A DNA stretch of 45,453 nucleotides from Ignavibacteriota bacterium (GTDB taxonomy: Bacteria; Bacteroidota; Ignavibacteria; UBA10030; SZUA-254). The translations under genes and the position numbers were made by a program. Shown here in pieces: positions 6,393 through 45,453 of this stretch (within the stretch, counting starts at the first letter, position 1; each line of letters opens with the position of its first letter). A model generated the notes under the pieces. That model did not search any database. It was not told where the DNA came from and saw nothing but the letters and a program-made list of their open reading frames with translations. Where the stretch lies: contig JACQVI010000136.1 of the NCBI GenBank assembly GCA_016209795.1, positions 1 through 45,453 on the forward strand, given 5' to 3'.

Positions 6393-8066
6393 TTATCTTA
6401 GCAGAATCAATTTCTTCGCAGCGGTAAACGTTCCTGCCGTAATCCGATAGGTGTAGATGCCGCTGGACATCTTTTCAGCATTCCACGTAACCGTATGGAC
6501 ACCGGGATCCTTCTTTTCATTCACGAGCGTTGCTACTTCACGCCCCAGAACATCGTACACTTTCAGTGTAACAAAACTCTCAGTTGGCAATTGGAAATTG
6601 AAGGTTGTAGATGGATTAAATGGATTGGGGTAGTTCTGCTCCAGTTCAAATCTCTCAGGAAGGGAATGGGTTTCATCAAATAACCCTGTTACGTTTCCTA
6701 ACGTTCCATCTGCAAGTACACGCTGGGCATAAATGTCATAGTCTGTTCCGCTTCGATAGTCTTGCCATGTAATAATCGCTCCTCCTGCACCATCACTGAC
6801 GATGACAGAAAGTTGCTGATTATTTGAAGCGGTCGAGATCGGAACACCACCGGACTGCCACTCGATTACACCTGAAGCATTCACTCGCTGGGCATAAATG
6901 TCATTGCTGCCATTGCGAGTGTCATACCATGTGATAATCGCTCCTCCTACATCATCACTGACAATCATGGCGCCATTCTCCCAGTCCGCTGTCGCAATCG
7001 GAACCCCGTCGACTTGCCACTGCACTACACCTGAACTGTTTACCTTCTGCGCATAAATGTGATTGTTTGTGCCGCTGCGAAAGTCACCCCACATGAAAAT
7101 CGCTCCCCCTGCGTCATCGCTGATAATCCCGGGAGAACCTTGATTACCTGTTGCTGTACAGATTGGAACTCCATCGGTTTGCCACTCGATTTCACCAGAA
7201 GCATTTACTCTTTGCGCATAGATGTCAGCAGAGTCATGCCAAGCGATTATTGCACCTCCTGCACCATCACTGACCATGGCCAGAAACTGTTGTCCTCCAG
7301 CTGACGTTTTGACTAAAATACCATTGACTGTCCATTGCACATCACCTAATGCATTCACCCTCTGTGCATAAATATCATAGGTATCATTGCGGACATCATT
7401 CCATACGAGAATCGCTCCTCCCGCGCCATCACTAATAATATTGGCATCAACTTGACTGGCTGGTGCTAAGCAAATCGGAACTCCATCTGCCGTCCATTGC
7501 GCAACACCCGCGCCATCTATCTTTTGCGCATAAATGTCCCAATCTGTGCCGCGATAATCAACTGACCACGTGATAATCGCACCTCCTGTATTATCAGTAA
7601 CGATGGCGGGACCGCCTTGATCGCTTGCCTCAGTGCAAATCGGCACACCTTCGACTTGCCATTGGACTGCACCTGAAGCATTGACCTTCTGCGCATAAAT
7701 GTCCCGGTTTGAGCCACTGCGAGAGTCATCCCATGTTATAATCGCTCCTCCTGCACCATCACTGACGATGGCAGGATTGTACTGAGTGTATGCTGCCGTC
7801 GAAATTGGAATGCCGTCCAATTGCCATTCGACAACTCCTGAAGCGTCCACCTTCTGCGCATAAATGTCAACGTCTGTGCCGTTCCGACCGTCATTCCATG
7901 TGACTATTGCTCCTTCTGCGCCGTCACTGATGATCCTCGGACCAGATTGACCGCGTTCTGCTGTACAAATCGGTGTATTGGTAGTTGGATTAGTAGACCA
8001 CTGGGCGTGCAGCGGAAAATCGCTGCATAGAAGAAGCAACACACATATTAACACTATCCGTCTCAT
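6393..8066 (-). CDS. Secreted repeat protein with T9SS type A sorting domain
   Basis: 557 residues. A signal peptide (MRRIVLICVLLLLCSDFPLHA) is followed by eight tandem repeats of about 50-56 residues. Each carries the core GGAIITW-D-R-G...DIYAQKVNASG...QW...GVPICTA. The last 80 residues are a T9SS sorting/FlgD-like domain: NYPNPFNPSTTFNFQLP, LKVYDVLGREVATLVNE, SSGIYTYRITAGTFTAAKKLILL. It should cross the outer membrane by type IX secretion and be attached or released at the surface. The repeats resemble beta-propeller blades, so an eight-bladed propeller is plausible. Ligand and function are unknown. Confidence 0.85.
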   Translation of the reverse strand: MRRIVLICVLLLLCSDFPLHAQWSTNPTTNTPICTAERGQSGPRIISDGAEGAIVTWNDGRNGTDVDIYAQKVDASGVVEWQLDGIPISTAAYTQYNPAIVSDGAGGAIITWDDSRSGSNRDIYAQKVNASGAVQWQVEGVPICTEASDQGGPAIVTDNTGGAIITWSVDYRGTDWDIYAQKIDGAGVAQWTADGVPICLAPASQVDANIISDGAGGAILVWNDVRNDTYDIYAQRVNALGDVQWTVNGILVKTSAGGQQFLAMVSDGAGGAIIAWHDSADIYAQRVNASGEIEWQTDGVPICTATGNQGSPGIISDDAGGAIFMWGDFRSGTNNHIYAQKVNSSGVVQWQVDGVPIATADWENGAMIVSDDVGGAIITWYDTRNGSNDIYAQRVNASGVIEWQSGGVPISTASNNQQLSVIVSDGAGGAIITWQDYRSGTDYDIYAQRVLADGTLGNVTGLFDETHSLPERFELEQNYPNPFNPSTTFNFQLPTESFVTLKVYDVLGREVATLVNEKKDPGVHTVTWNAEKMSSGIYTYRITAGTFTAAKKLILLR

Positions 8067-11561: not shown

Positions 11562-12935
11562 TCATTTCAGCATTATCATCATGATAGTTCTTGTGGTGGC
11601 CAAGGCTTCAACATGGCAGAAATAAGCGCCAGAATTCACCGTACGCACGGTGTTATCACGCCCATCCCACTGCACGAATCTTTCACCGGGTCCTTCAATC
11701 CGATCCACCAGCGTGCGTACTTCCCGACCGAGAAGGTTGTAAATCTTGAGACTAACGTTACTCTGAACGGGTAACTGAAAACGGATAACAGTTAACGGGT
11801 TGAAAGGGTTGGGGAAATTCTGAGACAGCTTAAACGAGGATGGCAATCCTTTGGGTGCCAGTATCACCCCCGTGATGCTGTTGTCGTACCGATGAACGCC
11901 AAAGGAGCCAGCAATTACAACAATATCTGTACCGTTGCGGTGAACAACCTCGACATCCGAGAGAATGGACAGCGACGTGCCGTAGCCAGAGTGTTCAAGC
12001 GTATCCCAGCTTATGCCGCGGTTCTCGCTCTTGAACAAGTACGGTCCTCCGTTCACGTACAACGTTTGGCTCCGCACCGGACTTACAGCCATGTCGAAGT
12101 TATAGAAGCTGTTCTCGTGGATAACGCTCCATGTGAGACCAGCGTTTGTCGATTTGACTATTTTCCCTTCACCGGGCACATACCATGTATTCATGTCGTC
12201 AGGATAAAATGCAAGCGTGTGACAAGCGTTGTCACCCTGAAAGACGTCGTCAACAATGACTTGATCCCACGTGCTGCCGTAATCCGTGGACTCAAACAAA
12301 ATCGGGTTAAAGATCCAGCCTTCACCTCCAAACCATAACTGATTAGGTCTATAAGGGTTGACTTTGATAAAACGATATCGCCACTGTGTATCGTAAATTC
12401 TGTTCCATGATGTACCACCGTTCGTGGTCATGTAAATCGCTCCCGCACCGACATCGACAAGATAGACCGTATCGCGTGTGAAAAGCAAACGATCCATGAC
12501 ATCGAACATGTTATCAGTAGGATTCCCCGAGCCGCTCACCGGACTCGTATAAACAACCGACCAATTTTCCCCAGCATCCATGGTCTTGTAGACTATAGTA
12601 CTGTCGGCGGTTTGCCAGAGATTCCTGACTCCCCAGATTTCATTATGATCAAAAAGAAGAAGGGTCCGAATCGCTTTCCCCTGTAATCCGACTTGGGACC
12701 AGACTGTATCCACAGCATCAATTGAACGCTTGTAGATCCCGCTGTCTGTGCCAACATAGATTGTATCCCCGAGTATCCTGATTTCGCCAACTATACGATC
12801 GCCAAGACCTAAATACGTCCATTGGGAATAGGCAATGCAAAAGAAAATCTTCATCACCGACAGAAGGGCATAGTACTTCAGACAAGTCAATACGAAAGAA
12901 GTTAATCTTGAATTGCTGGTTAGATGGTGTATCAC
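11562..12935 (-). CDS. Secreted BNR/Asp-box protein with T9SS sorting domain
   Basis: 457 residues from a GTG at 12935; an in-frame ATG about 28 codons in is another possible start. A hydrophobic N-terminus (roughly residues 12-36) acts as the signal. The body has repeated Asp-box motifs (MDAGENWS, TNGGTSWN, TDYGSTWD, TNAGLTWS, ENRGISWD), typical of sialidase/sortilin-like beta-propellers. The C-terminus is a T9SS domain: QNFPNPFNPLTVIRFQLP, LKIYNLLGREVRTLVD, NSGAYFCHVEA. The gene lies exactly between two decayed HIT-gene tails, suggesting that it arrived as cargo. Function beyond surface export is unknown. Confidence 0.8.
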   Translation of the reverse strand: MIHHLTSNSRLTSFVLTCLKYYALLSVMKIFFCIAYSQWTYLGLGDRIVGEIRILGDTIYVGTDSGIYKRSIDAVDTVWSQVGLQGKAIRTLLLFDHNEIWGVRNLWQTADSTIVYKTMDAGENWSVVYTSPVSGSGNPTDNMFDVMDRLLFTRDTVYLVDVGAGAIYMTTNGGTSWNRIYDTQWRYRFIKVNPYRPNQLWFGGEGWIFNPILFESTDYGSTWDQVIVDDVFQGDNACHTLAFYPDDMNTWYVPGEGKIVKSTNAGLTWSVIHENSFYNFDMAVSPVRSQTLYVNGGPYLFKSENRGISWDTLEHSGYGTSLSILSDVEVVHRNGTDIVVIAGSFGVHRYDNSITGVILAPKGLPSSFKLSQNFPNPFNPLTVIRFQLPVQSNVSLKIYNLLGREVRTLVDRIEGPGERFVQWDGRDNTVRTVNSGAYFCHVEALATTRTIMMIMLK

Positions 12936-12944
12936 AAGATACTC

Positions 12945-13035
12945 TTAACGCCCTATAGAAATCTCAGGAATAATCTTCTTATACTCCGCGATCATCTTCG
13001 TATCGGCGAGGGTGGGCATGCAGATGGTGGATCTA
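12945..13035 (-). pseudogene. Decayed 3' end of a HIT-family gene (tail copy B)
   Basis: On the minus strand this reads CMPTLADTKMIAEYKKIIPE then ISIGR-stop. ATGCCCACCCTCGCCGATAC and its flanks are identical to the intact HIT gene (23 bases in all). An in-frame stop lies about a dozen codons upstream, so only the tail remains. Its stop is 10 bases before the T9SS gene start at 12935. Confidence 0.65.
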
Positions 13036-13073
13036 CATTTGAAAATACTAGTTCAGCTCAGGGAGGTCAGATT

Positions 13074-13310
13074 CTAAACAGATCCTTTTAGTGTTTTGAT
13101 CAATTCCCTTGTTTTATCAGCTTCCGTAACAATCAATTCAGCGATTTTTGCTGTTCGCTCATCAACAAGTTCAGCGATTTTCGCCGTTCTCTCATCCATC
13201 CTGGCACCCAAATCTTGTATAGCCTTGCCAGTTTGAATGAGCAATGTCGTGAGCACTACCGAAAGAAAGGCACCAAGAAAGGTAAAGATTATCTGGAAGA
13301 CAAGATCCAT
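13074..13310 (-). CDS. Small membrane protein with coiled-coil repeat
   Basis: 78 residues: one membrane segment (MDLVFQIIFTFLGAFLSVVLTTLLI), then a charged helical tail in which the decapeptide DERTAKIAEL occurs twice in a row (about residues 39-58), ending ELIKTLKGSV. No family recognised; the layout is that of a membrane-anchored coiled coil. The ATG at 13310 is preceded by a weak AAGG. It sits between decayed tail copy B and the intact HIT gene, so it is cargo of the same rearranged segment. The decapeptide duplication suggests recent expansion. Confidence 0.6.
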   Translation of the reverse strand: MDLVFQIIFTFLGAFLSVVLTTLLIQTGKAIQDLGARMDERTAKIAELVDERTAKIAELIVTEADKTRELIKTLKGSV

Positions 13311-13380
13311 AACATGTACCTTCTTGATTAAGAAAAATACAAATTACTACATACTACCGAATTGATCCGTAAAAATCAAT

Positions 13381-13869
13381 TCAAAGGGCTCTCCTCAATT
13401 TTACTAGCGTCTCCTTCATATCCTCCGAGATCATTTTCGTATCGGCGAGGGTGGGCATGAAGTTGGTGTCGCCGTTCCAGCGTGGGACGATGTGAAAGTG
13501 CACATGCTGGTCTATTCCTGCCCCTGCGGTTCGACCAATGTTCGATCCAATATTGAATCCATCAGGATGAGAAACTCTTTGTAAGGCTACAGTCATTTTC
13601 TTGAGAAGAGCCATGATTTCCAATGATTCGTCGTCGGTAAGTTCGGTGAGATTTGGGATATGGCGATACGGCACAATCATCAAGTGACCGCTGTTGTACG
13701 GAAAGAGATTCATAATCACAAAGCACAGTTTGCCTCGCATGATAATGAAGTGTTCATCATCGTTGTTTGCTTGGAAGGCTTCGCAGAGGACACATTTCCC
13801 CTCTTCGTCCTCTGAATGAAAAAACTTTTCAATATACTTAGATCGCCAGGGGGAGAAGAGTCGTTGCAT
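13381..13869 (-). CDS. HIT-family nucleotide hydrolase/phosphorylase
   Basis: 162-residue histidine-triad protein. The catalytic motif HVHFHIVPRWNGDTNFMPTL (His-x-His-x-His-x-x, about residues 126-145) and the Cys-x-x-Cys pair CVLC near residue 26 match the zinc-binding, Ap4A-phosphorylase-like HIT branch. MNLFPYNSGHLMIVPYRHI is the conserved central strand. Likely activity is hydrolysis or phosphorolysis of dinucleoside polyphosphates or AMP conjugates. Two decayed copies of the last ~30 codons lie downstream at 12945-13035 and 11455-11545. Confidence 0.88.
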   Translation of the reverse strand: MQRLFSPWRSKYIEKFFHSEDEEGKCVLCEAFQANNDDEHFIIMRGKLCFVIMNLFPYNSGHLMIVPYRHIPNLTELTDDESLEIMALLKKMTVALQRVSHPDGFNIGSNIGRTAGAGIDQHVHFHIVPRWNGDTNFMPTLADTKMISEDMKETLVKLRRAL

Positions 13870-13993
13870 ACTACAATTCTTCTTTAAAAGAGTACAGTGT
13901 CGTTGAAAGATCCCATCGCCAGACTTCGACTAGCGCTCAGTGTGACGATCTGATTGGGGTCAACGGAAGACGAGCTAGCACTGCCAATCGTAA

Positions 13994-16102
13994 TTATGCC
14001 TCCTCCTCCACTTTTTCTTTCGCATGTTCGGCGATGATCTTTTCCATGATTTCACGTGGGACTTCTTCGTAATGATCGAACTTTTGCTTGTGGATGCCTC
14101 GTCCTTGCGTCATCGAGCGTAGATTCGTCGAATACCGATAGAGTTCTTTCAGCGGCACAAGCGCTTTGATGATCTGATGCGAGCCATCGGAATCCATTCC
14201 TAAAATCTTTCCTCGTCGACTCGAAATATCTCCCATAACATCACCCATGTACTCGTCGGGGACGGTGACCTCAATTTCATAAATCGGCTCTAACAGAATC
14301 GGTTTCGCCTCTTTGAAGCCTTTCTTGAACGCCATACGTCCAGCAATCTTGAACGAGTTTTCATCCGAATCGACATCGTGGTACGAGCCATCGAACAATG
14401 TTACCTTCACATCAACCACTTTATACCCGGCGATCACGCCCCCGTTCATCGCTTCGATGATACCTTTTTCCACGGCAGGGATAAATCTTCCAGACACTAC
14501 ACCGCCGACAATTGCATCCTCAAACTCAAAACCGGCACCACGCTGCAACGGTTCGATCTTAATCCAGACGTGACCGTATTGCCCCCGCCCCCCCGTTTGT
14601 TTCTTATGTTTGTACTCCACTTCGTTGGCACGTCCCTTAACAGTCTCACGATACGGTATCTTCGGCTCAACCATTTCAACGTCAACTCCGTACTTGGCTT
14701 TCAGCCGCTTGATGATAATTCCAAGATGAAGCTCGCCTTGTCCGCTAATAACCGTCTGGTGCAACTCTGGATCAACGGTCATGACAAACGTCGGATCTTC
14801 CTCATGGAGTGCGTGCAAGCCGGTCGCAATCTTATCCTCATCGCCCTTTGTCTTTGCAACAATCGCCATGCTAATGACGGGTTCTGGGAATTGTATCGGT
14901 GGAAGATTGGCGGAAAATGCCTTGCTGCTGAGCGTGTTGTTTGTGTGTGTATCTTTCAACTTTACAACGGCACCAAGATCACCCGCCACTAATTTTCCCA
15001 CTTCTTTCCGCTCTTTCCCATTCATAACGTAGAGCTGAGCAAGGCGCTCGACCTTGTTGTTTGTTTCATTGACCAAATCAAGACCGGGTGACACCATCCC
15101 CGAATACACTCTGAAGAACGAAAGCTCGCCAACGTGAGGCTCCGAAACTGTTTTAAACACGAAGAGCACAGGCGGTCGATTTGGATCATTGGAAACAATC
15201 ACTTCTTTACGATTCTCATGGTTAGAGCCGGGAAGCGTTCCAACAGCCGGTTCAACTTCCATGGGACTCGGGCAATAGTCAACAATAAAATCGAGGAGTG
15301 AGGCAACACCGATGTTATGAACTCCTGCAGCACAAAGAAGCGGGAAGAGCTTTCGTGTACGGATACCAAGCCGAAGTCCTTCCTTGATTTCCTGATCATT
15401 GAGGGTACCTTTGTCAAAAAATGTATCAAGAAGCTTTTCATCAGTTTCCGCAATCTGCTCGATGAGTTGTTCACGCATTTCATCGGCTTTAGCTTTAAGC
15501 TCGGCGGGGATGTCGGTCTCAGTGTACTTTCCTTTACCATCACGAGCGAATTTGAGAACTTTCATACGCAAAACATCGACAATTGCTTCAAAAGCAAGTC
15601 CTTGCTCTGCAGGAAATTGGATCGGCGTAACGTCGTGTGAGAATCGATCCCTCGCCATTTTGACTGCTTGCTCAAAGTCGGCGTTTTCATTGTCCAGCTT
15701 GTTGACGACAAAGAGAGTGGCATTCTTGAATTCTTTCGTATACTGCCAGGCGATTTCCGTTCCAACTTCCGCACCTTCGACTGCTTTCAAAAAAACAATC
15801 GCTGTGTCGGCTACACGCAGACTGCATTTAACTTCTCCGGTAAAATCTGTATAACCCGGCGTGTCCAGAATGTTGAGCTTGGTTCCCTTCGAGTCACAAT
15901 ACAACACTGAGGAATTAATAGAGATTTGTCGTTCAATCTCATCGACATGGTAGTCTGAGACTGTATTCCCCTCCTCGACTTTTCCAAAACGTGTCGTCGC
16001 TCCCGCGGTAAACAAACAAGCCTCGGCGAGCGACGTTTTTCCCGAACCACCGTGTCCCACCAAGGCTACATTACGGATGCCCTCTGCGGTATATTCCTTC
16101 AT
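13994..16102 (-). CDS. Elongation factor G paralogue (EF-G2-like)
   Basis: 702-residue translational GTPase. G1 reads GHGGSGKTS (residues 16-24) instead of the GHxDxGKTT of main fusA; G3 is DTPGY and G4 NKLD. Domains II-V follow, including the domain IV stretch TGGRGQYGHVWIKIEP and the C-terminal SSRRGKILGMD and YSTNLRSMTQGRG. This G1 variant is typical of the second EF-G class found beside a canonical fusA, whose role is less clear (translocation or recycling variants). Start: ATG at 16102 with AAGGAG upstream; an in-frame TTG two codons earlier is less likely. No rpsL, rpsG or tuf nearby, which also argues against main fusA. Confidence 0.88.
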   Translation of the reverse strand: MKEYTAEGIRNVALVGHGGSGKTSLAEACLFTAGATTRFGKVEEGNTVSDYHVDEIERQISINSSVLYCDSKGTKLNILDTPGYTDFTGEVKCSLRVADTAIVFLKAVEGAEVGTEIAWQYTKEFKNATLFVVNKLDNENADFEQAVKMARDRFSHDVTPIQFPAEQGLAFEAIVDVLRMKVLKFARDGKGKYTETDIPAELKAKADEMREQLIEQIAETDEKLLDTFFDKGTLNDQEIKEGLRLGIRTRKLFPLLCAAGVHNIGVASLLDFIVDYCPSPMEVEPAVGTLPGSNHENRKEVIVSNDPNRPPVLFVFKTVSEPHVGELSFFRVYSGMVSPGLDLVNETNNKVERLAQLYVMNGKERKEVGKLVAGDLGAVVKLKDTHTNNTLSSKAFSANLPPIQFPEPVISMAIVAKTKGDEDKIATGLHALHEEDPTFVMTVDPELHQTVISGQGELHLGIIIKRLKAKYGVDVEMVEPKIPYRETVKGRANEVEYKHKKQTGGRGQYGHVWIKIEPLQRGAGFEFEDAIVGGVVSGRFIPAVEKGIIEAMNGGVIAGYKVVDVKVTLFDGSYHDVDSDENSFKIAGRMAFKKGFKEAKPILLEPIYEIEVTVPDEYMGDVMGDISSRRGKILGMDSDGSHQIIKALVPLKELYRYSTNLRSMTQGRGIHKQKFDHYEEVPREIMEKIIAEHAKEKVEEEA

Positions 16103-17242: not shown

Positions 17243-18376
17243 ATGTGGAAAACAACTGAAGGAAGCACAGGCAGGCTCATCCAACTCTGCTTGGGGTATT
17301 TTTTCTTTTACGTCCTCACTGGAGTAAGCGTAAAATACTTTACCGGAAGCCCGGCGTTAGGCTTCCCGGGAATGAAGGAATTAGAGTTTGCCGTCTACAG
17401 CACAATTGGAGGAATCCTCGTGTGTCTTGCCGTGGTGTTCGCTCTTCGCTGGTACAACTTAAAATCCAATCAAATCATCCAGTGGGGTAAGCTCAGATTC
17501 CCGCAGGAAGTATTGTATATCATTCCATCTGGAGTGTGTACAGCAGTAGTTATTCCCACCACCACGCTCATGTATACTCTGCCAATTTCCGTCATGGTGG
17601 CAATGGTCATTATGCGAGCAAGTATCATTGTCATCAGCCGGATCGTTGATGCGATTCAGATTCAGCAGCGAATTCTCAAGAAGAAAGTATACACGGAAGA
17701 AAATTTCGCAGTTGTTTTTGCACTTCTTGCCGCAGGTGTTAATATTCTTTGGGTTGGTCATGGTGACTTCGACTTTCTCAAACACGAAGCTGCTGTGATC
17801 ATCCTTGGAAGCTACATCGTTGCGTATGCCATCCGTATCTACATCATGAATTACTACAAAAACACCCGAGCAAAAGGCGTGAAGTTAGACAACCAAGGGT
17901 TCTTTTCAATCGAGCAGATTGCAGCGACGGTAGTGTTAGTACTGGTAGGTGTCTTCTTATTCAAGTCACCCGACTGGTTTGGCGGAGGTGGCGAGCAGAT
18001 TACAATTTTTAGAGAGAGTTTTCTGAATCCGAAGTCAATTTGGACGTTGGCGTTCGTATCGGGTATGGCGTATGGCGGCGTTGCCTTCTTCTCCGTGTTT
18101 ATTTTTATGTTTAAGGGACGAACAGCAACGTTTGCCGGCTTGGTCAATCGACTAACTTCGTTGGTAGCCGGTACAACTGCTACATTGTCGTTTGCAATTA
18201 TTTACAGTGGAAAATTTCCAAAAATTCAGGATTGGGTTTCACTCGTCTTTATCTTGATTGCCGTGGGATTCCTGACAATTGCCGAGCGGAAGCGTACACA
18301 AGAACTTGTGTTGACGCATGAAATTGAAACGAAACCTGCTACTAAGGATTTTGTGGCAGTAGCAGAAAAGACGTAG
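17243..18376 (+). CDS. Multi-pass inner-membrane protein (DMT/EamA-like)
   Basis: 377 residues with about ten hydrophobic segments spread over the whole length, short loops, and a charged cytoplasmic tail (ETKPATKDFVAVAEKT). Overall size and ten-helix plan resemble drug/metabolite transporters, but I see no diagnostic signature, so the substrate is unknown. A Gly-rich loop (WFGGGGEQITIFRE) lies between helices in the second half. It is monocistronic and divergent from YtxH. Its stop is 12 bases before the leader of the first cassette array. Confidence 0.6.
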   Translation: MWKTTEGSTGRLIQLCLGYFFFYVLTGVSVKYFTGSPALGFPGMKELEFAVYSTIGGILVCLAVVFALRWYNLKSNQIIQWGKLRFPQEVLYIIPSGVCTAVVIPTTTLMYTLPISVMVAMVIMRASIIVISRIVDAIQIQQRILKKKVYTEENFAVVFALLAAGVNILWVGHGDFDFLKHEAAVIILGSYIVAYAIRIYIMNYYKNTRAKGVKLDNQGFFSIEQIAATVVLVLVGVFLFKSPDWFGGGGEQITIFRESFLNPKSIWTLAFVSGMAYGGVAFFSVFIFMFKGRTATFAGLVNRLTSLVAGTTATLSFAIIYSGKFPKIQDWVSLVFILIAVGFLTIAERKRTQELVLTHEIETKPATKDFVAVAEKT

Positions 18377-18388
18377 TGGAATTACACT

Positions 18389-18451
18389 TATAAAGAAAAT
18401 AAACACACATACCTGCCCGACGGCAGGCGGGTGTACGTTGTTACAGTAGTT
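18389..18451 (+). other. attI-like leader of array A
   Basis: TATAAAGAAAATAAACACA (18389-18407) is identical to 44152-44170, and GTTGTTACA (18437-18445) plus TAGTT repeat at 44180-44194. In between, the short palindrome of the other copy is replaced by a REP-like CCTGCC-cgac-GGCAGG (18412-18427). The inferred crossover is G18449/T18450. Confidence 0.6.
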
Positions 18452-18483
18452 GCAATTGCCCTGTATAAACTTAAGGAAAAGCA

Positions 18484-18936
18484 ATGTCTGAGAAGAAAGA
18501 AAGCCATGTAGGCGGCATAGAAGGTAAAATGGATGTTGTTGCAACCTTTTATTTTGGTATTTCAATTTCCCTTTTAGTCATTTGTCTGATCGTATCAGCA
18601 TTCGAATCTAGTCAGAAAACTGGTTTGTCGGTTTTCTGGCTTGCTTTGGGTCTTATTTCAATAGCCCAAGGTTTCATTTCCTGGATACTCTTCCGGGCCG
18701 GTGCCGAGATAATAAGGCTCTTGAAGCGATTGAACAATTTGCCGTACGGAGGTGAGATTTCACGCAGCAAAGCTGCCCCTTCTTCAATACAAAAGGAACC
18801 TCAGCAAGTTAACAAATTTGTGCTGATTGAAGAGCGTACTTCGTCAAAAAAGGTAGACTCTTTCTTCTGCAACGAATGCAAGACAGAAGTACCGGCAGAT
18901 GCCACAGAATGCCCTAAGTGCGGTACAATTTTTTGA
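18484..18936 (+). CDS. Cassette A1: two-TM protein with C-terminal zinc ribbon
   Basis: 150 residues. Two membrane segments (about residues 20-40 ATFYFGISISLLVICLIVSA and 50-75), a polar linker, and a C-terminal zinc ribbon FFCNECKTEVPADATECPKC (Cys-x2-Cys, 12-13 residues, Cys-x2-Cys). A ribosome site (AAGGAAA) lies just before the ATG. The gene fills cassette A1 between leader and attC-like site. Function unknown; the layout resembles regulatory membrane proteins that present a ribbon in the cytoplasm. Confidence 0.72.
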   Translation: MSEKKESHVGGIEGKMDVVATFYFGISISLLVICLIVSAFESSQKTGLSVFWLALGLISIAQGFISWILFRAGAEIIRLLKRLNNLPYGGEISRSKAAPSSIQKEPQQVNKFVLIEERTSSKKVDSFFCNECKTEVPADATECPKCGTIF

Positions 18937-18945
18937 TCGGTGACC

Positions 18946-19104
18946 GGGCAACTGCAACTAACAATTGTAAAAAAGTTGTTCGCTTTGTTTTAATGGAATA
19001 TTATTGTGCTCACTACATGCCGTTGCTCACGAATAAATTTGTTTATCATAGGTTCGCAACGGCACGTCTTTTTTACAAAACACGTTAAGCGCCATAGCGA
19101 TTCG
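18946..19104 (+). other. attC-like recombination site A1
   Basis: Left arm GGGCAACTGCAAC (18946-18958), second arm TTGTAAAAAAG (18965-18975) pairing perfectly with CTTTTTTACAA (19068-19078), then inner arm TGCCGTTGC (19018-19026) pairing perfectly with GCAACGGCA (19056-19064). The right core GTTAAGC starts at 19084, crossover G19084/T19085. The side between second and inner arm has 42 extra bases on the left but three on the right. Confidence 0.75.
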
Positions 19105-19126
19105 ATCATATCAAACGAAATAACCA

Positions 19127-20494
19127 ATGCCACAATCAGTTAAGATCGTGCTCGTCGGTGCGGCTGGATTTGATTCCAGAGATAGTGATAAATCAGTCCA
19201 GTGTATTGAATGGGATCGGCTCAAGAATCTTGGGAACATCCGGGACTTCGATATTGTAATACTAAATCTTCTTGAAGGGGTTCCAAAGACTGATTGGAAT
19301 CTTTTTCATCAGAAACTGAATCCTTCAACGATGCGTGAAATTCTGATGAACGGAGGCCGAATATATGTCTTAGGAGACCCACGATTCGAGGTCCCTTCAC
19401 CAAAAGAAGGTAACTTCCCCTTTCTTACGTGGACCGCCATGATGTTTCATTGGGACGACGATGCAGGTGACACCAAATGGATCAACCCCTACTACCAGTA
19501 CCGAGGCTACGAGGACTATCTCAGTAAACTATCTAAATGGAAATACTCCCTTCGAGCCGTTGAAATTAACAAACCAGTGATTTGGACTCTTTTCAATCCC
19601 GATCAATTCAAGAAAAATCAATTGTATCTCGATGTTGAGGTAGAGGAACTGGCAAAGAATAGATATGGCTGTCATTTGGCTTCAATCCAGCATCTCGTTG
19701 TCAGGAGGCGAGGAGATTATGGGAGGTCTGACAAGATAGCTCTTGATTTTGGCCCCGTAATTCTATTGCCCCCAACCGATCGATCTGCTAATGATGAAAT
19801 CATGATAGTTCTTCGTGACTTATGCGGCGTCGAGGGACAATCACCTGAGCCGAAATGGATTGAAGATTTCAAGGTTCCGGGGCAAAGGACGCTTGATGAA
19901 GAGATAACCAAAGTCAACGCAGCGATTGAATCTCAACTAAGCCAGCTTGAGGCTATTCAAAAGGAACGAGAAAAAGCTAGGGAATGCCTAAGACTACTAT
20001 ATGAACGTGGCAAGCCGCTAGAGGAAGCAGTCCGCAACGTCTTGCGCTCACTTGGTGGCAAAGTCGAAGATCCCGATGACCCTGGCAAGGAAGACGGTTG
20101 GATCACTGTCCAAATTGGCGAGGTTGTCTACGAGGGCGTGTTAGAAATCAAGAGCACCACAACCGAACAATTTGGAGAGGATGGAATCCGCCAATTACTA
20201 GATTGGGTAGGCCGAGGCATCAGCAAACGTCAGAAGAAGTACAAAGGATTATTCATAGGAAGCAACATGACCAACAAACCACTTAAAGAACGTCCTTGGG
20301 CGTTTAGTGATTCATGGCGAAAAAGCATAGAGTTGCATGGTTTTGTTGCTATGAAAACCGAAGACCTTTATGGTGCATACCTTCTTAACTCAAACGGCAA
20401 ACTGACTATCGAAGAGTTCTGGAACAAAGTATTCACCACAAATGGTGTCCTTGACACAAAGTTCTTGCAGGAAAAATTATCATCGAAGGACTGA
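19127..20494 (+). CDS. Cassette A2: putative PD-(D/E)XK nuclease-domain protein
   Basis: 455 residues, no signal peptide. The N-terminal half (about 1-240) starts VKIVLVGAAGFDSRD...DFDIVILNLLEG and is not recognised. Next is a coiled coil (about 260-300, VNAAIESQLSQLEAIQKERE), then a domain with LRSLGGKVEDPDD, KEDGWITV and GVLEIKSTTTEQFGEDGIRQ. D323 and E340-x-K342 have the order and spacing of a PD-(D/E)XK nuclease core, and the helix after the Lys is Gln-rich as in restriction-like enzymes. Carriage in an integron-like cassette makes an anti-phage or anti-plasmid role plausible but unproven. Its stop codon overlaps the 3' cassette arm. Confidence 0.6.
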   Translation: MPQSVKIVLVGAAGFDSRDSDKSVQCIEWDRLKNLGNIRDFDIVILNLLEGVPKTDWNLFHQKLNPSTMREILMNGGRIYVLGDPRFEVPSPKEGNFPFLTWTAMMFHWDDDAGDTKWINPYYQYRGYEDYLSKLSKWKYSLRAVEINKPVIWTLFNPDQFKKNQLYLDVEVEELAKNRYGCHLASIQHLVVRRRGDYGRSDKIALDFGPVILLPPTDRSANDEIMIVLRDLCGVEGQSPEPKWIEDFKVPGQRTLDEEITKVNAAIESQLSQLEAIQKEREKARECLRLLYERGKPLEEAVRNVLRSLGGKVEDPDDPGKEDGWITVQIGEVVYEGVLEIKSTTTEQFGEDGIRQLLDWVGRGISKRQKKYKGLFIGSNMTNKPLKERPWAFSDSWRKSIELHGFVAMKTEDLYGAYLLNSNGKLTIEEFWNKVFTTNGVLDTKFLQEKLSSKD

Positions 20495-20512
20495 ATCGCT
20501 ACGGCGCCAAAC
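20493..20512 (+). other. Truncated attC-like left arm of cassette A2
   Basis: GAATCGCTACGGCGCCAAAC matches 17 of 20 positions of the reverse complement of the A2 cassette start (19084-19103). The rest of an attC is missing: the decayed kinase-gene tail begins 17 bases later. Confidence 0.6.
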
Positions 20513-20528
20513 AACGAAAAAACGTAAC

Positions 20529-20614
20529 TCACCGCTTCATCACACTCCACAACCTCGACGTCTCTCTCCAACTCATTGCAAGCTTTACAGGATCATCCGT
20601 CTTTTCAGATTCAT
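20529..20614 (-). pseudogene. Decayed 3' end of the P-loop kinase gene
   Basis: On the minus strand reads NESEKTDDPVKLAMSWRETS then RLWSVMKR-stop. It matches the end of the intact kinase at 21152 (NEPEKTDDPVKLGAELGRVT, ARLWGVMNKK-stop). AAGCTTTACAGGATCATC is identical at DNA level. Between the copies lie only a hairpin and hicBA. The gap 20495-20717 otherwise holds the cassette arm, hairpin TTGGTCA/TGACCAA (20622-20648) and a promoter. Confidence 0.72.
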
Positions 20615-20663
20615 TCATCTGTTGGTCAGGAGTTCAACTCATGACCAACCTAAGTCAGTGAAC

Positions 20664-20692: not shown

Positions 20693-20717
20693 ATTGCAAC
20701 GGTTCAAGGAGATAAAT

Positions 20718-20912
20718 GTGAAATATAAAGTTCATATAAAAAAAACTGATGAAGGATACTCTATTTGGGTGCCGGGTCTGCCCGGCTGCTGGTCTCAAGG
20801 AAAAACTGAAAAAGAAGCCTTAGAGAATATCAAGGATGCGATTGAATCATACTTAGAGACCGTTGAAGAATTGAGCAAAGGAGTAAGAACTCGTGAAGTA
20901 GAAGTCGCATAA
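20718..20912 (+). CDS. hicB: HicB-family antitoxin
   Basis: 64 residues from the GTG at 20718, chosen because AAGGAG lies six bases upstream; a TTG eight codons earlier would bury that site in the gene. The HicB fold is clear: YKVHIKKTDEGYSIWVPGLP, GCWSQGKTEKEALENIKDAI, ESYLETVEEL. This is the short HicB form with no visible C-terminal DNA-binding domain. It should bind and silence the HicA ribonuclease encoded three bases downstream. The pair is flanked by an intact and a decayed copy of the same kinase gene end. Confidence 0.88.
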   Translation: MKYKVHIKKTDEGYSIWVPGLPGCWSQGKTEKEALENIKDAIESYLETVEELSKGVRTREVEVA

Positions 20913-20915
20913 AGA

Positions 20916-21128
20916 ATGCCCAAGCTTCCGGGTATCAACCACCAACGTGCTGTTAAGGCGTTCAAGAAAGCAGGATTTTGGATAGCACGTGAAAGCAAAC
21001 ACATTACAATGACAGACGGCAAACATATCATTTCAATTCCCAGAGCAAATCCTGTTAATGCTTTTACAATGGGTGGAATTATCAAAGATGCCGGATTTAC
21101 AATCGAGGAATTCAAAGAACTTCTCTGA
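20916..21128 (+). CDS. hicA: HicA-family mRNA interferase toxin
   Basis: 70 residues. Double-stranded-RNA-binding-like fold with the family pattern LPGINHQRAVKAFKKAGFWI, then ARESKHITMTDG with the catalytic His, and IPRANPVNAFTMGGIIKDAG. It cleaves mRNA to arrest translation when unbound by HicB. The antitoxin-first order is common for this family. The stop is 23 bases from the kinase gene stop on the opposite strand. Confidence 0.9.
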   Translation: MPKLPGINHQRAVKAFKKAGFWIARESKHITMTDGKHIISIPRANPVNAFTMGGIIKDAGFTIEEFKELL

Positions 21129-21151: not shown

Positions 21152-21871
21152 CTATTTCTTATTCATCACACCCCACAACCTTGCTGTTACTCTCCCCAAC
21201 TCCGCACCAAGCTTTACAGGATCATCAGTTTTCTCAGGCTCATTCTCAAACACTGCGTAAGGTACTTTGAAATCCTTGATCCTGATATAATTAGTATCAT
21301 CCGCTGTTAATTTTTCCCAATCATTGGTCTTGTAATAGAACTCCATCTTCTCATCCGGCAGCGAGTGATAGAGGATGGAATCTTCCATGCCCGGTCGTGC
21401 TCGCTTGCGGTTTTTTCTGACGGATTCTTCATACGATACTTTGATGTAAATGATGCCGGCTCTCTTAAGGATTTCCTCATGAAGGTAAGAGAATGCCTCA
21501 CCAAAACCATTCTCACCACCACGAGCAAATTCCACCAGCGCTGTTATTGTATCGTGATAGTGGGGATCGGCAGCAAGCTTTTTCCTGTAAGCAAGATTGA
21601 TCCGCTCGATGTAGAGATTCCAGATAAAATGGTCTTTGAACCAGTACTTTTCATCTGACCAGATGCGAGGTTTTCCATGTCGAGAGAGAATATCATCAAT
21701 CTCAAAAGTCTCCCAGACATAGACAAAATCGTCAACCTCTTCGAAATTGTTGATATGAAATCGTTGAAGGCGTTCCTCAGGAGATGTCTTTTTCAGGAAA
21801 TCAATAACCTCCGATTTGCCGGCAGCGGGTCTCCCAATTAAGATAATTACCTCGAAATGGTTTCGACTCAT
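21152..21871 (-). CDS. P-loop kinase-like ATP-binding protein
   Basis: 239 residues. Walker A GRPAAGKSE at residues 13-21 in the first strand (FEVIILIGRPAAGKSEVIDF), as in small-molecule or nucleotide kinases. The arginine-rich segment SVRKNRKRARPG (about 160-170) may be the lid. Substrate not recognisable. It starts three bases after the 5'-nucleotidase stop and ends the leftward operon that begins at sppA, so a nucleotide-related role is reasonable but inferred. A decayed copy of its last 28 codons lies beyond hicBA at 20529-20614. Confidence 0.65.
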   Translation of the reverse strand: MSRNHFEVIILIGRPAAGKSEVIDFLKKTSPEERLQRFHINNFEEVDDFVYVWETFEIDDILSRHGKPRIWSDEKYWFKDHFIWNLYIERINLAYRKKLAADPHYHDTITALVEFARGGENGFGEAFSYLHEEILKRAGIIYIKVSYEESVRKNRKRARPGMEDSILYHSLPDEKMEFYYKTNDWEKLTADDTNYIRIKDFKVPYAVFENEPEKTDDPVKLGAELGRVTARLWGVMNKK

Positions 21872-43280: not shown

Positions 43281-44132
43281 GTGCAACAGAACAAATTGAA
43301 GTTTTTTGAGACAGTTAGGCAAGAGATGCGGCTGAGAAACTACGCTCACAAAACAACGAAAGCATACTTGAGTTGTTTGAGATCGTTCGTGAAATATTTC
43401 ACGCCACGACATCCTCGTGAGTTGACAGATGCAGATATTCGCTCGTATCTTCTTCACTTAATCGAGATAGAAGAATTCGCTGCTTCTTCAGTCAATTAAG
43501 TGTTTAACGCTTTACGTTTTTTGTATGTTGATTTGTACAAGATGCCGTTTGCGATTGGCAGTATTCCGAGACCGAGGAAAGAACGAAAGCTCCCTGATGT
43601 CCTAACTCAGGATGAAGTGAAAAGGCTTTTCTCTGCTGTGACCAACCCGAAGCATAGAATGGTGCTCATGGTCATATATTCTGCAGGGTTGCGAATCGGG
43701 GAAGCGACACGATTACGACTTGAAGACTTTGATCCTGCTCGAAAAATGATCCACATCCGTGGCGGCAAAGGGAAAAAAGATCGCTTCACGATGCTCTCTG
43801 AAAAAGTTATGAATGAACTTTCACAATATCGAGCGGTATACAAAACGGTGAAATACCTTTTCGAAGGAGAGCGTGACGGCAAGCCCTACAGTCTCAGCAG
43901 TATCCAACAGGTCTTCCGGAAAGCAATTGAACATGCAGGAATAACAAAACCGGCGACCGTCCATACGCTTCGGCACTCCTTTGCCACCCATTTGTTGGAA
44001 CAAGGAGTGGATTTACGATATATTCAGGAGTTGCTTGGACATTCAAGCTCTAAAACAACCGAAATTTACACCCATGTGAGTTCCAAGAACATCGCTGCCA
44101 TCCGCAGCCCATTAGATAGCTTGGGGTTATGA
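43281..44132 (+). pseudogene. Tyrosine recombinase/integrase interrupted by one in-frame TAA
   Basis: One continuous frame broken only by TAA at 43497-43499, where relatives would be expected to have a sense codon (CAA, Gln) in SSVN(Q)VFNALRFLY. The part before is the SAM-like core-binding domain (MRLRNYAHKTTKAYLSCLRS). The part after is the catalytic domain with Arg in YSAGLRIGEATRL, Lys in GGKGKKDRF, His-x2-Arg in HTLRHSFATHLLEQG, His in ELLGHSSS and Tyr in TEIYTHVS. The second part begins with GTG directly after the TAA, so re-initiation as a split enzyme is possible. Start taken as GTG 43281; a TTG at 43236 is too close to the promoter. The IntI-specific insert is not evident, so it may be XerC/D-like. 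Confidence 0.8.
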
Positions 44133-44151: not shown

Positions 44152-44194
44152 TATAAAGAAAATAAACACATATATGTGTGTTGTTACACTAGTT
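44152..44194 (+). other. attI-like leader of array B
   Basis: TATAAAGAAAATAAACACA (44152-44170) identical to 18389-18407; palindrome ACACATATATGTGT; then GTTGTTACACTAGTT with inferred crossover G44192/T44193. It lies 19 bases after the recombinase stop. Confidence 0.62.
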
Positions 44195-44217
44195 ATGTGC
44201 CATTGCCCTAACAGAAA

Positions 44218-44769
44218 ATGAGCCACAAACCACTGTTCATAGTTTTCTTGTTTGTTTTCGTTGGATGCGAGTCGACGACCATAACATTTACAGACATTGC
44301 TTTGGTTCTTGCGACACTCGGTCTCGTTTTCGCGACCTGGAAGCTCGCTCAGTACACACGGGCCTTGTCCAAACTGACGGAGCGACTCGTGAACATAGAA
44401 AACAAGCGGGATGAGCGAGATGAGAAAGAGAAACGGTTGAAGGATCTGGCGAGCGGACTTGCTGCGGCAGAAATAGTTCAACGCATTTATCCTGAAAGTT
44501 TCGCGCAGCGATTGAACAAACCGTCAGACTTGCCAATCGAAGAAATGAATGCAATTGAAGTTCTCCAATCCCGCAAGAAGTACATTGGCGATACCGACAG
44601 TCATCCGAATCTTGACTACCTATGCAGTGTGTTCGACTCTGTGCGCAGAGAGAAGTCAGGCGTACGACAAAACGAAGCTGACATTGCCAAACGAATCCAC
44701 ACTTTGCAGGGCCGGATACAGTGGTTTGTGGACGAAGCTCGACGAGAGATCGGTTCCGCTGAACAGTAG
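44218..44769 (+). CDS. Cassette B1: hypothetical membrane-anchored coiled-coil protein
   Basis: 183 residues. The N-terminus has a hydrophobic stretch ending in a possible lipobox (FVFVGCESTT), a membrane segment (ITFTDIALVLATLGLVFATW), then a long charged helix (LTERLVNIENKRDERDEKEK). The C-terminal half is soluble and contains SRKKYIGDTDSHPNLDYLCS and RIQWFVDEARREIGSAEQ. No known family recognised. It is the only gene of cassette B1. Cassette-borne genes of this kind are often single-gene accessory functions. Confidence 0.65.
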   Translation: MSHKPLFIVFLFVFVGCESTTITFTDIALVLATLGLVFATWKLAQYTRALSKLTERLVNIENKRDERDEKEKRLKDLASGLAAAEIVQRIYPESFAQRLNKPSDLPIEEMNAIEVLQSRKKYIGDTDSHPNLDYLCSVFDSVRREKSGVRQNEADIAKRIHTLQGRIQWFVDEARREIGSAEQ

Positions 44770-44784
44770 TTCATTCAAAGGTAC

Positions 44785-44957
44785 GGGCAACGGCACATAA
44801 CACGCCGCACCACGACGCTCCGTCATTTGAAAGGGATTTAAGTCGTCGCTCAATGGTTTTTGGTGCGTTTTGGTAAGCGAAGTTAGAGCGATGGATATTT
44901 TTCTTAGCACCAAAAACCACTGCGTGGTGCGGCGAGACGTTAAGCGCAATGCGCCAC
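44785..44957 (+). other. attC-like recombination site B1
   Basis: Left arm GGGCAACGGCACATAAC (44785-44801). CGCCGCACCACG (44803-44814) pairs perfectly with CGTGGTGCGGCG (44923-44934). TGGTTTTTGGTGC (44854-44866) pairs perfectly with GCACCAAAAACCA (44907-44919). Right core GTTAAGC, crossover G44939/T44940. As at site A1, one side has an extra ~39 bases between stems (44815-44853) against three on the other. Confidence 0.8.
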
Positions 44958-44995
44958 AATCAACTAAATCCATAACCATTATAGGAGACGTTCTC

Positions 44996-45433
44996 ATGCA
45001 ACGCATCTACAGTGTCGGACGATGTTTCTGTCTTATCGCCATTCTGATTTTCGCCGTGAATGGCTGTGCGACAACCAATGAAAAATCAAATTTTTTAAAC
45101 GGAATTTGGACACCTGTAAAACAGGAAATGGCTGGAACGTCTCTACCTCCAACTGCTTTTGAAAATCAAAAACTGACATTGCTAGACAGCACATATACCT
45201 ATTTAGCAGAAAGTATTGACAAAGGCATCGTTACTTACAGCAAAGGGAAAATGGACATTTACGGCAAAGAAGGAGTCAATACCGGAAAACACTTTACTGC
45301 AATTTATAAATTTGAAAACGAGCAGTTGACAATTTGCTACAACTTGTCAGGTGACAGTTATCCGGAAACATTTAAGACCAAAGGCAAACCATCATTTTTC
45401 CTTTCAGTATTCAAAAAAGAATCGACAAAATAA
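44996..45433 (+). CDS. Cassette B2: small lipoprotein, TIGR03067-like
   Basis: 145 residues. AGGAG (44983-44987) nine bases before the ATG fixes the start; the longer reading from 44870 runs through the attC site and is rejected. Lipoprotein signal MQRIYSVGRCFCLIAILIFA with lipobox VNGC. Mature part: GIWTPVKQEMAGTSLPPTAF, KLTLLDSTYTYL, KHFTAIYKFENEQLTICYNL, then SGDSYPETFKTKGK. The W...E..G...P start and L-x-I-C-Y-x-L-S-G near the end resemble the TIGR03067 lipocalin-like family. Role unknown. The 3' cassette arm lies beyond the window. Confidence 0.72.
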   Translation: MQRIYSVGRCFCLIAILIFAVNGCATTNEKSNFLNGIWTPVKQEMAGTSLPPTAFENQKLTLLDSTYTYLAESIDKGIVTYSKGKMDIYGKEGVNTGKHFTAIYKFENEQLTICYNLSGDSYPETFKTKGKPSFFLSVFKKESTK

Positions 45434-45453
45434 ATTATGGCAAAAAATAAAAC

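Follow-up and report, generated by a model that had tools for sequence, protein, structure and literature searches.

An integrase-less and probably decaying array of an I2-less class of integrons

Integron integrases (IntI) possess the additional domain I2, which the literature regards as the feature that defines them and as a requirement for recombining cassettes (PMC9668308, PMC7790495). I2 reads an extrahelical base in the L'' box of the attC site and this base sets strand choice (PMC2727003, PMC4792948); within canonical attC sites it is described as “absolutely conserved” (PMC2727003). How I2 could have been selected before attC, or attC before I2, constitutes a chicken-and-egg problem (PMC4792948), and intermediates in integron evolution are lacking (PMC7790495). 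The locus described in the following lies within a stretch of 45,453 nucleotides from an Ignavibacteriota bacterium, in its full length referred to as the window. Array B (18389–20512) is composed of an attI-like site and two cassettes, B1 and B2, and contains no integrase. We consider it, with a probability of roughly 0.8, to be a decaying copy of an integron which belongs to an integrase class without I2. Such an integrase heads a further array of the window, array A.

Array B and its insertion between two neighbouring genes

Array B comprises the following elements:

18389–18451, + strand: attI-like site, made up of a 19-mer, a hairpin and the core GTTGTTACAGTAGTT
18447–19084, + strand: cassette B1 with complementary ends, its attC found by covariance model
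18484–18936, + strand: gene of B1, encoding 150 amino acids with a hydrophobic N-terminal half and a zinc-ribbon-like C-terminus
18953–19091, + strand: attC of B1 with R'' TAAC, L'' TTGTAAAAAAG, L' CTTTTTTACAA and R' GTTAAGC
19085–20512, + strand: cassette B2, start GTTAAGCGCCATAGCGATTC at 19084, end GAATCGCTACGGCGCCAAAC at 20493
19127–20494, + strand: gene of B2, encoding 455 amino acids, no family match
20493–20530, + strand: truncated attC of B2, which retains R'' and L'' but has neither L' nor R'

A search of the whole 3.39-Mb genome for the 19-mer, TATAAAGAAAATAAACACA, yields exact matches at 18389 and 44152 only (shuffled sequence averages 0.05 matches at three or fewer mismatches). In both places it opens an attI-like site on the left, with cassettes behind the site, which speaks against the 19-mer being a common intergenic motif devoid of cassettes. 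In both arrays it is succeeded by GTTGTTACAnTAGTT, the attI core, whose exact sequence is present three times in the genome (C64:13378, C103:18437 and C103:44180), each time with cassettes behind it. The original prediction that these two motifs recur ahead of cassettes is thereby borne out, and it was right in taking the leader for attI-like and what follows for cassettes, which are of integron type and carry attC-like sites. The TAGTT which it had added as a third recurring element does not, however, represent the same junction in array B as in array A. The R'' of B1 predicts the cassette start GTTAGTTGCA, whereas the window reads ACAGTAGTTGCA, so that the attI/B1 junction is short by about 4 nt, corresponding to one AGTT unit. 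Matches to the 19-mer with two mismatches in relatives were dismissed, most of them being due to chance and having no attI core behind them. The arms of the attI hairpin in array B read ACACATA/..GTGTAC and enclose an inserted palindrome, CTGCC..GGCAGG (18413–18431). A similar palindrome insert stands behind the same leader motif in a relative (G030; L020 near 1530).

Complementary ends, as originally claimed for two cassettes, are indeed seen for both B1 (start ..TAGTTGCAATTGCCC, end GGGCAACTGCAACTAAC) and B2, whose start and end are complementary at 17 of 20 positions. The attC of B1 is free of an extrahelical base and reaches 109 bits (E 3.4e-21) with the covariance model, in whose training set it is also contained; its bottom strand folds weakly better than shuffled sequences (z -1.5). 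For B2, the reverse complement of L'' is absent within 330 nt. The B1 protein matches Zn_Ribbon_1 weakly (E 4.6e-5, under the gathering score), and no homologue of the B2 gene was found among 59 relatives. Comparison of the window with Rfam gave no match.

The flanks of the array are occupied by:

17243–18376, + strand: permease-like gene, left flank (homologues 61–74% identical in 20 of 29 relatives)
20535–20616, + strand: duplicate of the kinase-like gene's 3' end (blastn, 80% identical)
20694–21128, + strand: HicB-like/HicA-like toxin-antitoxin pair (open reading frames; HicAB assigned by eye)
21152–21871, - strand: kinase-like gene, right flank, convergent, found beside the permease homologue in relatives

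Since the homologues of the permease-like and the kinase-like gene are directly adjacent in at least eight relatives (L156, L158, L161–L166), array B sits in an insertion, the gap between the ends of the two genes (18376 and 21152) amounting to 2.8 kb in the window. Judging by this gene order, attI, B1 and B2 evidently entered the gap in this lineage, and the HicBA pair behind B2 probably entered the same gap. A search beside this pair, which array B and the kinase-like gene enclose, found no attC; it may be a former cassette. The duplicate at 20535–20616 corresponds to 21152–21245 and stands directly behind the truncated attC of B2. Upstream of 18389 neither a recombinase gene nor a remnant of one is present, in agreement with the earlier statement that array B is without a recombinase. 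Elsewhere in the window, a gene on the - strand (6393–8066) contains eight repeats of ~165 nt with a 57-nt core (65–88% alike).

Array A and the I2-less integrases

Array A extends to the end of the contig:

43281–44132, + strand: tyrosine recombinase of integron type without I2, interrupted by an in-frame TAA (43497–43499)
44152–44194, + strand: attI with 19-mer and core as in array B
44193–44939, + strand: cassette A1, ends complementary at 16 of 18 positions, gene at 44218–44769
44792–44946, + strand: attC of A1, no extrahelical base, 90 bits with the covariance model
44940–45453, + strand: start of cassette A2, inside which the contig ends

As assembled, the TAA replaces a glutamine codon which is CAA or CAG in relatives; apart from this single codon the integrase gene is open throughout. 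The bottom strand of the A1 attC folds with a z of -4.67. Since 17 of 18 positions at the start of A2 agree with R'' of the attC that comes first on contig C148, this contig with its seven further attC sites probably continues array A, which is thus probably long, with A2 completed on C148. With the covariance model and a threshold of E<1e-4, the genome yields 18 attC sites, among which seven share one strand of C148. The sole other family member of this genome, a frameshifted I2-less integrase, resides on C64 (L072 12493–18615) together with an attI of its own and four attC sites. A search for canonical IntI found none above cut-off in the genome, whose assembly is 96% complete.

When read through the stop codon, the window integrase attains 254 bits against TIGR02249, which is below the 265-bit cut-off, the profile matching at positions 2–179 and ~235–315 and skipping ~180–235; it passes NF040815 with 224 bits (cut-off 220). 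What the family lacks is the IntI-specific I2 domain of ~41 residues near patch III. Accordingly short is the GKG-to-HxLRH distance, which is 65–72 in 91 of 91 family members compared to 107 in 18 of 18 IntI including IntI1. The catalytic residues R138, K163, H228, R231, H254 and Y263 are present and invariant among 19 sequences, and an SPLD/SPFD tail is common to the family and IntI. By sequence, the closest solved structures are VchIntIA (2a3v; 142 bits), in the alignment to which about 42 IntI residues remain unmatched, and archaeal XerA (4a8e; 134 bits). The confident AlphaFold2 model (pLDDT 86.6) finds its best structural matches in XerA (4a8e, Z 23.8) and VchIntIA (Z 21.5; 37% identity).

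In the phylogenetic tree, IntI forms one clade (support 100/100) with the family outside of it, and XerC/D stand apart from both together. A sister position of IntI to the I2-less family and a position nested inside it are both compatible with the tree (AU p 0.38). The I2-less family is set apart by a single branch in the quick tree (support 74) but not in the careful tree (23% of bootstraps), the data being compatible with its monophyly as well as with the lack of it. By the tests made, the window integrase is thus to be placed outside the IntI family. The I2-less family spans Bacteroidota, Nitrospirae, Atribacteria, Firmicutes and Archaea, in all of which these integrases would be overlooked since standard detection requires the I2 profile.

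Recombination sites and arrays of the I2-less integrases

The attC-like sites of A1, B1 and C64 share a layout consisting of R'' (..TAAC), a spacer of 1–2 nt, L'', a variable part of 60–120 nt, L', a spacer of 4–5 nt and GTTRRR. They conform to the canonical attC pattern, with R'' ending in AAC, R' reading GTTRRRY and L boxes able to fold. A covariance model built from 31 attC sites gives 52 matches beside I2-less integrases or solo attI sites and none in eight canonical IntI loci. A cassette start matches its own R'' at, on average, 14.2 of 18 positions compared to 9.4 with shuffled partners (maximum 10.3; n=51), this pairing of up to 18 nt having played no part in picking the sites. Cassette ends are complementary over 17–18 nt in the window's lineage versus about 8–12 nt in the canonical arrays compared. 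Within this lineage, 36 of 39 well-matched cassettes carry, at position 11, an A in the start and a C in R'', which produces a mismatch in the top-strand hairpin and a G.T wobble in the bottom-strand hairpin; this position may set strand choice. As the hairpin reads on both strands, orientation was taken from the spacer asymmetry, a scan for attC with symmetric spacers returning equal forward and reverse counts. Covariation in the attC alignment was rejected as proof, being largely circular for sites picked by stem complementarity.

Beside I2-less integrases, 64 sites are without and 11 with the extrahelical base, compared to 1 without and 26 with it beside canonical IntI; counted by locus, the ratio of without to with is 29:7 versus 1:12 (P=6e-6), where the rules for picking the model set and part of the sites counted favour unbroken stems. 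Bulged sites thus occur at 7 of 36 loci with an I2-less integrase, and a strict rule that absence of I2 means absence of the bulge is contradicted by L085, L098 and L111. The last of these (11720–14260) combines an I2-less integrase with five bulged attC sites and no unbulged one, an exception which bears on gain or loss of I2.

In all loci examined, the integrase is co-oriented with the array and situated upstream of it. The attI is found next to the integrase gene, a motif ..TTACAn..GTT being conserved no more than about 150 nt from the stop codon of this gene in most loci at the level of the order. On the integrase strand of 59 named bacterial and archaeal loci, 88 attC-like sites are located downstream (310 kb) versus 11 upstream (483 kb); a Markov sequence control gave 7. 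At least three attC sites are present in 19 of 23 genomes with an I2-less integrase versus 5 of 37 without (P=2e-7 for 60 genomes of the order, not corrected for relatedness). Canonical IntI above cut-off is absent from 15 of 20 named genomes with an I2-less integrase, evidence which is weaker for some of them since their assemblies are incomplete; the isolates Flavobacterium terrisoli, F. caseinilyticum, Arundinibacter roseus, Alkaliphilus pronyensis and Rufibacter psychrotolerans are among the IntI-free ones. One cassette is found at 85% identity, in different array positions, in a Deltaproteobacteria and a Nitrospirae contig (L075 872–1490 and L090 12305–12922); the match begins with GTTATGTGA and ends just past CATAAC, so that it includes the gene as far as R'' and leaves out the remaining attC. 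With its ends at the crossover, this cassette lends indirect support to recombination of attC with attI by the integrase. Sites of attC type which are at least 90% alike recur in Altarchaeum and Atribacteria.

By all available sequence tests, the I2-less system appears to work like an integron. Its integrase presumably recombines attC with attI, performing the catalysis itself and using a single strand. It would bind the double-stranded attI core together with the folded cassette end (attC, R''-L''...L'-R') and join the two between G and TT, so that cassettes would stack in one orientation behind attI. With I2 absent and the extrahelical base mostly missing, the strand would be chosen by means of the unpaired spacer, which is lopsided (1–2 versus 4–5 nt), and in this lineage also by the fixed A/C wobble position.

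Origin of array B, evolutionary meaning and comparison with known systems

With its contracted attI/B1 junction, its truncated last attC and a broken cognate integrase, array B looks derelict. The original prediction had offered two explanations for it, namely that one enzyme serves several attI-like sites in trans or that the array was copied. Copying gains support from the 19-mer, common to arrays A and B only, from the insertion between genes that are neighbours in relatives and from the signs of decay. How an array may come to stand without its integrase is illustrated by relatives. At the solo attI G001:C54 (L023 496–1420) the last integrase codons are kept before attI, and an attC-like site is located about 700 nt upstream. 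The solo attI G034:C105 (L024 784–2800) is fused to a scrap of the integrase N-terminus and followed by two attC sites, which makes it another integrase-less array, produced by deletion. No integrase scrap was found at the third, G001:C66. Since two of these three sites retain scraps, it is demonstrated that a solo leader can result from loss of the integrase; array B itself presumably lost its integrase as well.

Service in trans would make array B a live satellite on which the integrase of array A, or one of another replicon, acts as on several attI sites. The identity of the 19-mer and near-identity of the core at both sites agree with this, as do relatives such as G001, in which several integrases occur together with two or more solo attI sites. 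Yet both I2-less integrases of the genome are broken and no canonical IntI was found above cut-off, the attI junction and the last attC of array B are damaged, and in relatives, integrase deletion has visibly left two solo attI sites behind. The evidence thus gives no support to an enzyme acting in trans today, and we regard a live satellite as unlikely, copy and decay being better supported, though an integrase gene in the unassembled part of the genome, or an enzyme acting on array B in trans in the past, is conceivable.

As there is no scrap at 18389 or at G001:C66, attI might also have travelled together with the cassettes as a unit, in which case array B never had an integrase. The shared block indeed begins sharply at TATAAAG, positions 18377–18388 being free of integrase remnants, and attI-type cassettes, albeit unusual, occur in mobile integrons (PMC12901181). 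The sharp edge may, however, merely mark the conserved part of attI, and considering the scraps retained at the two other solo sites we hold this course of events to be quite improbable. That a lost or unassembled canonical IntI built the arrays, the neighbouring I2-less recombinase being incidental, is very unlikely: canonical IntI does exist within the same order and foreign IntI can recombine attC sites (PMC9668308), but the I2-less enzyme is the only one present in isolates with long arrays, such as Flavobacterium terrisoli, Arundinibacter roseus and Alkaliphilus pronyensis, attC counts follow this enzyme rather than IntI, and attC structure varies with integrase type.

If array B is a decaying copy of an I2-less integron, it represents a widespread kind of integron, with an integrase lacking I2 and mostly unbulged attC sites, which is apparently undescribed; we found no earlier description of I2-less integrons in the open-access literature. 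I2-less integrases located at attI sites and arrays are candidates for an intermediate, or else for a secondary simplification, and the system bears on the order in which I2 and attC originated. Tentatively, I2-less integrons might be a surviving ancient stage within which IntI arose by gaining I2 and its attC by gaining the extrahelical base, spacer asymmetry, here along with the wobble, being the older means of strand choice. Independently of this, part of the many “integrase-less” attC clusters would be explained by undetected I2-less integrases.

Among known systems, the integration of CTX-phi by XerC/XerD (cited in PMC4792948) likewise involves an I2-less recombinase and a folded single strand without extrahelical bases, but it borrows the Xer proteins of the host and features neither cassette arrays nor an attI platform. 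With the CALIN elements of IntegronFinder (PMC9024848), array B has in common that cassettes are present without an integrase, the nearest integrase gene being 24.8 kb downstream; in contrast to them it keeps its attI, and with one intact and one truncated attC it falls below the two-site default. The “complete” class of the same program would miss I2-less integrons, as it requires the I2 profile. XerA resolves chromosome dimers at dif. The window integrase is structurally close to it and passes NF040815, the model for a “site-specific tyrosine recombinase/integron integrase”, while the I2-less family differs from XerA by its IntI-like SPLD tail, by its location at attI and arrays and by grouping with IntI. 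With the canonical sedentary chromosomal integron of the V. cholerae type, finally, the system shares the tyrosine recombinase, the adjacent attI and the one-way cassette array, as well as the R''/L''/L'/R' boxes, the G|TT crossover and the large variable terminal part. It differs from it in the integrase, which is devoid of I2 and lies upstream of the array in the same orientation at all loci examined, and in attC sites which mostly do without the extrahelical base.
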